From the NCBI RefSeq assembly GCF_014267175.1, contig NZ_JACMTR010000002.1:3435501-3499500 (forward strand): a stretch of DNA of 64,000 nucleotides, in the 5' to 3' direction. The notes below the pieces were generated by a model, which was not told where the DNA came from, searched no databases, and saw only the letters and a list, made by a program, of their open reading frames with translations. The stretch is from Pseudonocardia sp. C8. GTDB taxonomy: Bacteria > Actinomycetota > Actinomycetes > Mycobacteriales > Pseudonocardiaceae. The translations under genes and the position numbers were made by a program. This document shows positions 51,819-54,202 of the stretch, one piece after another (within the stretch, counting starts at the first letter, position 1; each line of letters begins with the position of its first letter).

Positions 51819-52859
51819 TCAGTACCGCATCCCCATCGCGTCCCGCACCTCGTCCAGTGTGGTGTCGGCGACGGCGTTCGCCGCCGCGTTGCCGCGGGCC
51901 AGCACGGACCGGACGAGGCCGGGCTCGCAGGCCAGCTCGGCGCGCCGGGCGCGGTGCGCCGCGAGGTGGGTGTTGACCGCCTCCGTCGTGATCTTCTTCA
52001 GTAGCCCGGCGCCGCCGTCGCCGATCTGCTCGGCGATCTCCACCGGGCTGCGGCCGGTGCACAGCGCGGCCGTCGACAGCAGGCCCGACACCCCGGGACG
52101 CGTGCCGGGATCGAAGCTGATCCGGCGTTCGGGGTCCGTGCGGGTGCGGCGGATCACCGCGGCCGTCTCGTCCGCGGTCATGCCGAGCGCGATCGCGTTG
52201 CCGTAGGACTTCGACATCTTGCGACCGTCGAGCCCGGGGATCTCCGGCGCGGCGGTGACCATCGGCTCGGGAACCCGGAAGATCGGTGCGTAGCGCTCGG
52301 CGAACCGCCGCGCGATCGTCCGGGTCAGCTCGACGTGCGGCAGGTTGTCCTTGCCCACCGGCACGAGATCGGCCTTGCAGAACAGGATGTCCGCGGCCTG
52401 GTGCACCGGGTAGGTGAGGAGCAGCCCGGACAGCGCACGCCCGGACGCGGCGAGCTCGGACTTCACGGTCGGGTTGCGGTGCAGCTCGGCCTCGGTCACC
52501 AGGGACAGGAACGGAAGCATCAGCTGGTTCAGCGCGGGAACGGCCGAGTGGGTGAAGATCGTCGTCCGGTCCGGGTCGAGACCGGCGGCGAGCAGGTCGA
52601 GCACCGCGCCGTGCACGTGCTCGCCCACCCGGTCCGCGGTCTCCCGATCGGTGATCACCTGGTAGTCGGCCACGATCACGAACACGTCGACGCCGGAGCG
52701 TTGCAGGCGGACGCGTTCGGCGATCGACCCCACCAGGTGCCCGAGGTGCAGCGGGCCGGTGGGCCGGTCCCCGGTCAGGACGCGGTGCGCGGCCGGGTCA
52801 GCGGCGATCTCCGCACGCAGGCCGGGCATGCGGTCGACGGTGGCGGCGAACGAGTTCAT
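51819..52859 (-). CDS. trpS: Tryptophanyl-tRNA synthetase
   Basis: A 346-residue class I synthetase charging tRNA-Trp. The HIGH-like motif is [11 protein letters not shown], the KMSKS motif is [11 protein letters not shown]. The [25 protein letters not shown] start resembles auxiliary or drug-resistant TrpRS (as found with indolmycin producers) more than the housekeeping B. stearothermophilus-like form (inference). ATG 52859 with GAGGAG at 8 nt. An upstream leader with three Trp codons (52949-53002) suggests attenuation control by charged tRNA-Trp. Confidence 0.92.
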
Positions 52860-52916
52860 CGGTGGGTCTCCTCTGTAGTACGGACGAGCCGCACGAGGGA
52901 CCGCGCTCGGACACCG

Positions 52917-52938
52917 GCGGGCTGCTCGTGCAGCCCGC
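52917..52938 (-). promoter_or_regulatory. trpS leader hairpin 3:4 (attenuator/terminator)
   Basis: GCGGGCTGC and GCAGCCCGC form a perfect 9-bp stem with 4-nt loop on the minus strand between the leader peptide stop and trpS. It lacks a U-tract. Its upstream arm can instead pair with the segment at 52955-52961. Confidence 0.65.
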
Positions 52939-52948
52939 GGACGTGCGT

Positions 52949-53002
52949 CTACCCGGCTGCGGTACGCAGCCACCACCAGCAGGCCGGTCGGATCGGACGC
53001 AT
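52949..53002 (-). CDS. trpS leader peptide ([17 protein letters not shown])
   Basis: An ATG at 53002 begins a 17-codon frame ending in TAG at 52949 with three adjacent TGG codons (52970-52978). A TAGTGT -10 box (53010-53015, minus) ends seven bases before the ATG, so the transcript probably starts at the leader ATG. Strand 1 (52965-52971) pairs with strand 2 (52955-52961) as GGCTGCG/CGCAGCC; strand 2 can instead pair with strand 3 (in 52930-52938). Ribosome stalling at the Trp codons would mask strand 1 and favour the 2:3 fold. Confidence 0.78.
52955..52971 (-). promoter_or_regulatory. trpS leader hairpin 1:2
   Basis: GGCTGCG-TAC-CGCAGCC (7-bp stem, 3-nt loop) overlaps the leader peptide's last codons directly after the Trp codons. 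It is mutually exclusive with 2:3 pairing. Confidence 0.6.
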
Positions 53003-53009
53003 GGCGATC

Positions 53010-53015
53010 ACACTA
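53010..53015 (-). promoter_or_regulatory. Leaderless -10 box of the trpS transcript
   Basis: TAGTGT on the minus strand, seven bases before ATG 53002. It is back-to-back with the TACCAT box at 53050-53055 of the plus-strand GTPase gene. Confidence 0.5.
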
Positions 53016-53049
53016 CTCCCCGCACCACCGGATACACATCGAACATCGT

Positions 53050-53055
53050 TACCAT
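53050..53055 (+). promoter_or_regulatory. Leaderless -10 box of the CobW GTPase gene
   Basis: TACCAT, seven bases before ATG 53063, in a lower-GC stretch. Confidence 0.5.
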
Positions 53056-53062
53056 TAGCGTC

Positions 53063-54202
53063 ATGGCCGACCGACGCGTACCCGTCACGATCCTGTCCGG
53101 ATTTCTCGGGGCGGGGAAGACGACCCTGCTCGACCACCTGCTGGCCAACCGGGAGGGCCGGCGGGTCGCCGTCGTCGTCAACGACATGAGCGAGGTCAAC
53201 ATCGACGCCGCCCTCGTCGCCGGGCAGGGCACACTGCACCGCACCGAGGAACGGCTGGTCGAGCTGACCAACGGCTGCATCTGCTGCACGCTGCGCGAGG
53301 ACCTGCTGGCCACCGTCGGCGAGCTGGCCGCCGAGGGTCGCTACGACCACGTCGTCGTCGAGTCGACCGGGATCTCCGAGCCGATGCCGGTCGCGGCCAC
53401 CTTCGAGTGGACCTTCGAGGACGGCACGGCGCTCTCCGACGTCGCCCGGCTGGACACGATGATCACCGTCGTCGACGCGTCCACCTTCGAGACCCACCTG
53501 ACCACCGAGGACTCGCTCGCCGACCGCGGGTTGCAGGCCGCAGAGGGCGACGAGCGGACGCTGGCCGACCTGCTCGCCGACCAGGTCGAGTTCGCCGACC
53601 TGCTGGTCGTCAACAAGACCGACCTGGTCCCGCCGCACCGCCTCGGCCGGATCGAGGCGCTGCTGCGCCGGATGAACCCGGGAGCCACCGTCGTCCGGGC
53701 GGTCCGCGGCGCGGTCCCGGTCCGCACGCTGCTCGACACCCACCGCCACGACCCCGCCGCGGCTGCCCGCACCCCCGGCTGGGCCCAGGAGCTGACCGGC
53801 TCGCACACGCCGGAGACCGAGGAGTACGGCATCGCCTCGGTGACCTGGCGGGCCGCCCGCCCGTTCCACCCGGCCCGCCTGCTGGACGCGCTCGGCGACT
53901 GGCCGGGCCTGTTGCGCAGCAAGGGTTTCTGCTGGATCGCGACCCGGCCGGATGTTGCCGGGCTCTGGTCGCAGGCCGGGCCGAACATGGCGCTCGACCC
54001 CGCGGCGCCGTGGTCGTCGTTCGATGGGATCCGCGGCCAGGAGATCGTGTTCATCGGGCTGGGCCTGACCCGCGACGACGTCACCGCCCGCCTCGACCGC
54101 GCGCTGCTCACCGACGACGAGCTGCTGGCCGGCCCACGGGCCTGGCGCGCGCTCGACGACCCGCTGCCGGAGTGGGATCTCGCCGGCCTGCACGCCCACT
54201 GA
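53063..54202 (+). CDS. CobW/ZNG1-like GTP-binding metallochaperone
   Basis: A 379-residue G3E GTPase of the CobW family. The Walker A is [16 protein letters not shown], the metal-binding motif [13 protein letters not shown] (CxCC), the Walker B-like [11 protein letters not shown], and NKTDLV the guanine motif. The C-terminal CobW_C domain follows. These proteins insert Zn or Co into clients under metal scarcity; a Zur-regulated example is common in actinobacteria. A 9/15 match to a Zur-like motif overlaps the promoter but is too weak to assign. ATG 53063. Confidence 0.87.

Follow-up and report, generated by a model that had tools for sequence, protein, structure and literature searches.

A tryptophan-codon leader before an auxiliary trpS gene of Pseudonocardia and a candidate fifth RNA segment that may link attenuation to translation

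The auxiliary trpS gene of Pseudonocardia sp. C8 is preceded by what we read as a ribosome-mediated tryptophan (Trp) attenuator in which a fifth RNA segment would act as a second, translational checkpoint, a reading to which we give a probability of roughly 60%. Coordinates (Table 1) refer to the window, the whole stretch of 64,000 nucleotides that was analysed. Sequence and its conservation show a Trp leader, alternative pairings among four arms (1:2, 2:3 and 3:4), a -10 box and a segment 5, and modelling predicts that the Shine-Dalgarno sequence (SD) of trpS lies inside a hairpin overlapping segment 5. The core of this attenuation is already known, and what is new is the fifth segment, which is complementary to arm 3 and the adjoining loop. 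A literature search weighted to openly accessible papers returned no title on a fifth segment or an SD hairpin in these leaders, which lends weak support to novelty. The features described in the original prediction for this DNA are confirmed, and its interpretation, a Trp attenuator before trpS, is supported; it had missed the fifth segment and the SD hairpin.

The product of trpS matches the Pfam family tRNA-synt_1b and the NCBIfam model trpS (TIGR00233), and the solved structures that match its sequence best are 1yi8 (tryptophanyl-tRNA synthetase) and 2a4m (Tryptophanyl-tRNA synthetase II), which we take to be Deinococcus radiodurans chains. Since the genome holds one other trpS, 37% identical to that in the window, the latter is taken to be the auxiliary copy; the presence of a second copy and the literature on such genes agree with the earlier assignment of the gene to the actinobacterial auxiliary TrpRS kind. 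The upstream region of the other trpS lacks a Trp leader. Orthologues of the auxiliary gene at an E value of 1e-85 or better are distributed patchily: 13 of the 62 genomes searched in the genus have one, as do 46 of 394 in the class and 38 of 298 in the order. The gene is also found on plasmid-labelled records (L192-L198), some of them megabases long, from Microbacterium (beside IS21 genes), Rhodococcus, Streptomyces, Embleya and Nonomuraea, which fits its patchy spread; six of the seven plasmid copies examined have a Trp leader and one (L196) has none. The divergent neighbour of trpS (53063-54202, plus strand) encodes a CobW-family GTPase, and similar DNA also lies upstream of trpS in L005 and L006; the stretch between the genes is richer in AT. 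A palindrome of the zinc-repressor type was considered and set aside, its consensus having no match in the window.

Table 1. Features of the trpS leader region, with positions in the window
Feature	Position	Strand	Basis
-10 box, TAGTGT	53010..53015	-	sequence; TANNNT conserved in leaders
Leader peptide frame, 17 codons, ATG at 53002, stop TAG (52951-52949)	52949..53002	-	sequence; orthologue comparison
Three consecutive Trp codons	52970..52978	-	sequence; TGGTGG invariant in 15-sequence alignment
Arm 1, GGCTGCG	52965..52971	-	sequence; relatives' alignment
Arm 2, CGCAGCC, partner of arm 1 or arm 3	52955..52961	-	sequence; relatives' alignment
GACGCAC, possible partner of leader start ATGCGTC (52996-53002); weak evidence	52943..52949	-	
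Arm 3, GCGGGCTGC, partner of arm 2, arm 4 or segment 5	52930..52938	-	sequence; alignment
Loop of 3:4, ACGA; complements segment 5, not the flank of arm 2	52926..52929	-	
Arm 4, GCAGCCCGC; no U-tract after it	52917..52925	-	sequence; alignment
Anti-SD, GGTCCCTC	52895..52902	-	predicted fold
Segment 5, CTCGTGCGGCTCGT; 14 pairs with arm 3 and loop; overlaps the SD-hiding hairpin	52884..52897	-	
SD of trpS, AGGAG	52868..52872	-	sequence
Auxiliary trpS (TrpRS, 346 aa)	51819..52859	-	Pfam tRNA-synt_1b; NCBIfam TIGR00233; second trpS elsewhere in genome

The leader frame, described earlier as containing TGG TGG TGG, can be read directly from the minus strand and is separated from trpS by 89 nt. On sequence grounds the window by itself is weak evidence for a leader peptide (of 2000 shuffled versions of its upstream region, 5.1% contain a leader of the pattern W.?W), whereas the orthologues argue strongly for one. 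Such a leader precedes 78 of 94 distinct orthologues, compared with a mean of 2.1 and a maximum of 6 in 100 dinucleotide-shuffled sets. These orthologues were pooled from the genus, the class, the order and one further search at a cut-off of E 1e-85 or better. None of 14 more distant trpS genes (35-43% identical) has a W.?W leader, and no comparable leader was found before related trpS genes of the Bifidobacterium / Coriobacteria type at the 22 loci with upstream DNA among the best 80 matches listed (22 among L034-L050 and L052-L057). One locus of that type, L038, has a WSW frame which we take to be chance.

No W.?W leader was detected in 16 of the 94 orthologues, a count that includes L119, where the Trp codons are present and the start of the frame is lost at the end of a contig. 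In L120, L165, L185 and L187 the hairpins are kept and the leader has only one Trp codon, with Arg after it (SWRPS-like). L186 has a stop codon directly before TGGTGG, and L175 has no Trp frame, the Trp codons apparently having been lost; hairpin-like arms are still there in both. Ten orthologues are without any Trp leader (L015, L016, L017, L127, L131, L142, L151, L156, L169 and L175). Further comparisons used a set of 86 leaders made up of 77 of the 78 W.?W leaders (L167, in which no hairpin was found, was left out), four leaders taken from other searches or from below the E 1e-85 cut-off (L018, L032, L033 and L051) and five added by hand (L119, L120, L165, L185 and L187). Start codons were set by hand in L010, L013 (which has ATC there), L018, L129, L154, L176, L182 and L120, and hairpins in 11 leaders. 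A non-redundant set consists of 28 leaders below 75% identity. The trpS of L018 (G029:C100) matches in three pieces and seems broken; its leader, 3:4 hairpin and a T-run are present.

In 76 of the 86 leaders the motif TANNNT lies 5-9 nt (mostly 6-7) upstream of a leader start codon that is in frame, compared with a control mean of 4.0 and a maximum of 9. Because the -10 box is conserved at this place, the start of the transcript is put at the leader start codon; transcription probably begins at or next to the leader ATG, which would make the leader peptide leaderless. It had been proposed that TAGTGT starts transcription at this ATG, with transcripts starting downstream of 52949 as the thing to look for, and the conserved box favours the proposed start over a downstream one.

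In the window the 1:2, 2:3 and 3:4 pairings are mutually exclusive, arm 1 overlaps the control codons at the third Trp codon, and the stop codon lies three bases past arm 2. The three pairings named in the original prediction are thus all present in the window, and 1:2 and 3:4 are kept in 15 close relatives, in which 94.2% of the cells of these two helices are paired, compared with 21.7-47.9% for slid versions; only two of the 15 form the seventh pair of 1:2. A search for orthologues lacking both the Trp codons and the pairings, which had been suggested as a check, turned up instead the retention of Trp codons and helices described here. The interval given earlier for the attenuator (52949-53015) takes in the leader and arms 1 and 2, and arms 3 and 4 fall outside it. 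A helix of the leader start with bases after the stop codon has 83.9% of its cells paired, but 303 of 500 shuffles equal this value and one slid version reaches 69.1%; it is kept as a weak candidate feature.

As noted before, the 3:4 hairpin has no U-tract. The stretch 52700-53300 contains no terminator-like site that has a T-run, the tail after 3:4 in the window, CGGTGTCC, has 2 T of 8, and the window and 14 aligned relatives have 0-2 T in the 8 nt after 3:4. Among the 86 leaders, 29 have 4-6 T in these eight bases. Because its 3:4 hairpin is not followed by a U-tract, the leader in the window is filed as a variant, and not a plain member, of the ribosome-mediated amino-acid attenuators. Rfam gave no match at gathering score in the window, and a scan of 52700-53200 gave one chance hit to an unrelated family (E 8.9); a T-box riboswitch was rejected since the Rfam T-box models were unmatched.

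Segment 5 lies just 5' of the SD of trpS, and in the window the 3:5 pairing joins GCGGGCUGCACGAG with CUCGUGCGGCUCGU. Downstream of 3:4, the sequence that best complements arm 3 and loop has its end 17-23 nt upstream of the trpS start codon in 65 of the 86 leaders, compared with a mean of 12.1 and a maximum of 19 for shuffled targets (200 sets), and the mean energy of the 3:5 duplex is -19.6 kcal/mol compared with -14.5 kcal/mol in shuffles (standard deviation of set means, 0.29). The placement recurs in 18 of the 28 non-redundant leaders (shuffles: mean 3.9, maximum 9), where the mean energy of -18.3 compares with -14.0 in shuffles and becomes -15.4 when segment 5 is swapped between species, the lowest of 2000 permutations being -17.25. 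The native segment 5 ranks first as a partner in just 8 of these 28 (median rank 6.5), and taken singly the duplex reaches P 0.05 in 46 of 86 leaders and in 12 of the non-redundant ones. Among the 15 close relatives the 3:5 helix has 94.8% of its cells paired (slid versions, 31.4-53.8%), and two pairs have changed on both sides, in one sequence each; the number of pair types in the helix is not above shuffles (265 of 500).

The loop of 3:4 allows segment 5 to be assessed apart from the arm. When only the arm is used to set the pairing register, the first three loop bases (+1, +2 and +3) find a partner in segment 5 in 57, 54 and 54 of 83 leaders (permuted fractions 0.41, 0.45 and 0.36), and none of 5000 permutations gave pairing as high. 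In the non-redundant set the counts are 17, 18 and 15 of 26 (P 0.002, 0.010 and 0.002). The same bases are paired with the flank of arm 2 in 16, 18 and 29 of 86 leaders, which is not above chance. Pairing of the loop bases with segment 5 is not explicable by 3:4.

In the predicted fold of the window, segment 5 lies within a hairpin together with the SD. The computed openness of the SD in the 28 non-redundant leaders is 0.18, compared with 0.33 in shuffles, and none of 60 shuffled sets was as low. With 3:5 forced rather than 3:4, openness of the SD rises in 49 of 86 leaders, falls in 14 and is unchanged in 23 (16, 5 and 7, respectively, of the 28 non-redundant leaders); in the window the value goes from 0.20 to 0.55. 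Mean openness is 0.34-0.35 with 3:5 forced, 0.24-0.26 with 2:3 and 0.19-0.23 with 3:4. By mean energy 3:5 is the least stable of the three states and 3:4 the most stable; 3:4 with a hidden SD is favoured over 3:5 by a median of 7.4 kcal/mol. From the boundary of a stalled ribosome the energies in the window are -44.8 for 2:3, -49.7 for 3:5 and -56.2 for 3:4, which places 3:5 below 2:3 by 4.9, an order found in only 19 of 86 leaders (6 of 28 non-redundant; median 2.9 above). Because 3:5 rarely lies below 2:3, an exchange of 2:3 for 3:5 would have to be kinetic in most species.

A held-out set of 64 loci, treated with no hand fixes, yielded 51 scored leaders, with 12 loci lacking a detected leader or start codon and one lacking a hairpin. 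Segment 5 ends at 17-23 nt in 16 of the 51 (shuffles: mean 5.2, maximum 12), which is weaker than in the 86-leader set, and 3:5 singly reaches P 0.05 in 9 of 51. L192 was scored as a miss with a GTG at 1552 as the start; taking the annotated start (1501) instead puts the end of its segment 5 at 19 nt upstream, and the count was left unchanged. The placement is split by lineage, with 0 of 22 in one genus and 16 of 29 elsewhere. The genus with 0 of 22 is probably Streptomyces, on a basis that includes the resemblance of its leaders to the one carried by a plasmid (L195) named as Streptomyces.

Most members of this probable Streptomyces genus (L199-L227, L121, L123 and L126) have a fifth segment that nearly repeats arm 3 and pairs with arm 4. 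The 4:5 pairing has a mean z of -3.65 and reaches P 0.05 or less in 23 of 28 leaders, and a strong match ends 29-36 nt before trpS in 21 of 28, while 3:5 is seen in only 2 of 28 (mean z -0.03). All 28 scored leaders have 4 or more T after 3:4. The combinations of 2:3 with 4:5, and of 3:4 with a free fifth segment, amount to the ordinary attenuator order. Few leaders outside the genus show 4:5, which reaches P 0.05 or less in 14 of 109 (mean z -0.70). Lack of a U-tract and presence of 3:5 are associated across all 137 leaders (49/16 versus 36/36; Fisher P 0.003). The association fails in the 28 non-redundant leaders (11/7 versus 8/2; P 0.42), and for this reason it is not claimed that 3:5 replaces the U-tract.

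The steps by which this anatomy would switch are all ones that we infer. When charged tRNA-Trp is scarce, a ribosome would stall on the Trp codons and cover arm 1, such that 2:3 would form and 3:4 would not. When charged tRNA-Trp is plentiful, the ribosome at the stop codon would cover arm 2, and 3:4 would form with its loop closed, leaving segment 5 free to hide the SD. Less certainly, segment 5 may in starved cells leave RNA polymerase before the SD does, use the free loop as a toehold and displace arm 2 from arm 3; it could then no longer hide the SD, which would stay open. The choice made at 3:4 would in this way also be read out at translation of trpS, and a 3:4 hairpin without a U-tract could still switch the gene. 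The complete sequence, in which 2:3 antitermination is followed by toehold strand exchange and then by opening of the SD by 3:5, with only transcripts made during Trp shortage being translated and a related lineage using the opposite order (the fifth segment with arm 4), is put forward tentatively, and we regard it as somewhat doubtful.

It is possible, though we do not favour it, that the leader is a plain transcription attenuator in which transcription stops at 3:4, either with no U-tract or with the help of Rho, and in which segment 5 has no role in the switch. The title of a study on an antibiotic-resistant auxiliary TrpRS gene names transcriptional attenuation, 4 or more T follow 3:4 in the 29 leaders mentioned above, and the 3:4 state is the lowest in mean energy. 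This account leaves the fixed place of segment 5, its loop complementarity, its species-specific fit and the hidden SD unexplained, however, and the window has no T-run. Alternatively, lineages without a U-tract could possess a purely translational attenuator, where 3:4 is a switch hairpin only and exposure of the SD alone is regulated. We consider this unlikely: although neither the window nor its 14 aligned relatives have a U-tract and the SD is hidden more than expected, the only state that opens the SD clearly is 3:5, on average the least stable, and the link between 3:5 and a missing U-tract fails in non-redundant leaders.

Pairing of arm 3 with segment 5 could also be real and yet serve mRNA stability or processing, or keep trpS off instead of turning it on. 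Most of the 86 leaders have a long 3:5 helix close to the beginning of the gene, which would suit such a role, and pairing order alone gives 3:5 no ON state, but forcing 3:5 opens the SD in 49 leaders and closes it further in only 14; this role seems improbable to us. As for a frame and inverted repeats that arose by chance in G+C-rich DNA, the 5.1% of shuffled window regions that contain a W.?W leader leave a little room for it when the window is taken by itself, and the conserved arms and the 78 of 94 orthologues with a leader, compared with a mean of 2.1, make it exceedingly improbable. If segment 5 works as proposed in the reading that we prefer, namely as a translational checkpoint behind a Trp attenuator, one leader peptide would govern both transcription and translation through RNA strand exchange. 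The family would then provide a natural range of leaders, with and without a U-tract and with 3:5 or 4:5, in which to test how attenuators shift their readout, and a mechanism known in Streptomyces would be widened to other actinobacteria with a spare TrpRS.

The E. coli trp operon attenuator (trpL) combines Trp codons with 1:2/2:3/3:4 logic. The leader in the window resembles trp operon attenuators in both respects, as these are described for actinobacteria in the accessible part of Seliverstov et al. (2005; PMC1262725), where poly-U tracts are reported to follow the attenuators of Corynebacterium and Streptomyces; it is unlike them in that its gene is a synthetase and not a biosynthetic operon, and in having no U-tract. 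The same part of that paper predicts a candidate Trp attenuator before trpS2 of S. avermitilis, which is likewise a second trpS, and describes it as classical with no mention of a fifth segment, whereas the leader in the window has one (PMC1262725). In S. lividans TK24, trpL2 lies before trpS and is reported to have two hairpins and no uridine-rich stretch, and both Trp leaders of this species are reported to be leaderless (PMC8079986). The window shares with trpL2 a probably leaderless leader peptide before trpS and the lack of a uridine-rich stretch, while trpL2 has only one Trp codon and the accessible part of the report mentions neither an SD hairpin nor a fifth segment (PMC8079986). Unlike the leaders of the probable Streptomyces genus, with their 4 or more T and 4:5 in 23 of 28, the lineage of the window is without a U-tract and pairs segment 5 with arm 3. 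Vecchione and Sello reportedly described in 2010 the ribosome-mediated attenuation of trpRS1, an auxiliary antibiotic-resistant trpRS gene of Streptomyces coelicolor, and the window appears, from what is indicated of that system, to be like it in having an auxiliary TrpRS gene under ribosome-mediated control. In erm-type translational attenuators, stalling of a ribosome on the leader sets exposure of the SD, the signal is an antibiotic on the ribosome, and there is no 3:4 terminator. The leader in the window differs from these attenuators in its proposed signal and in its 3:4 hairpin, and by analogy it would resemble them in the proposed step whereby stalling on the leader decides whether the SD is exposed.
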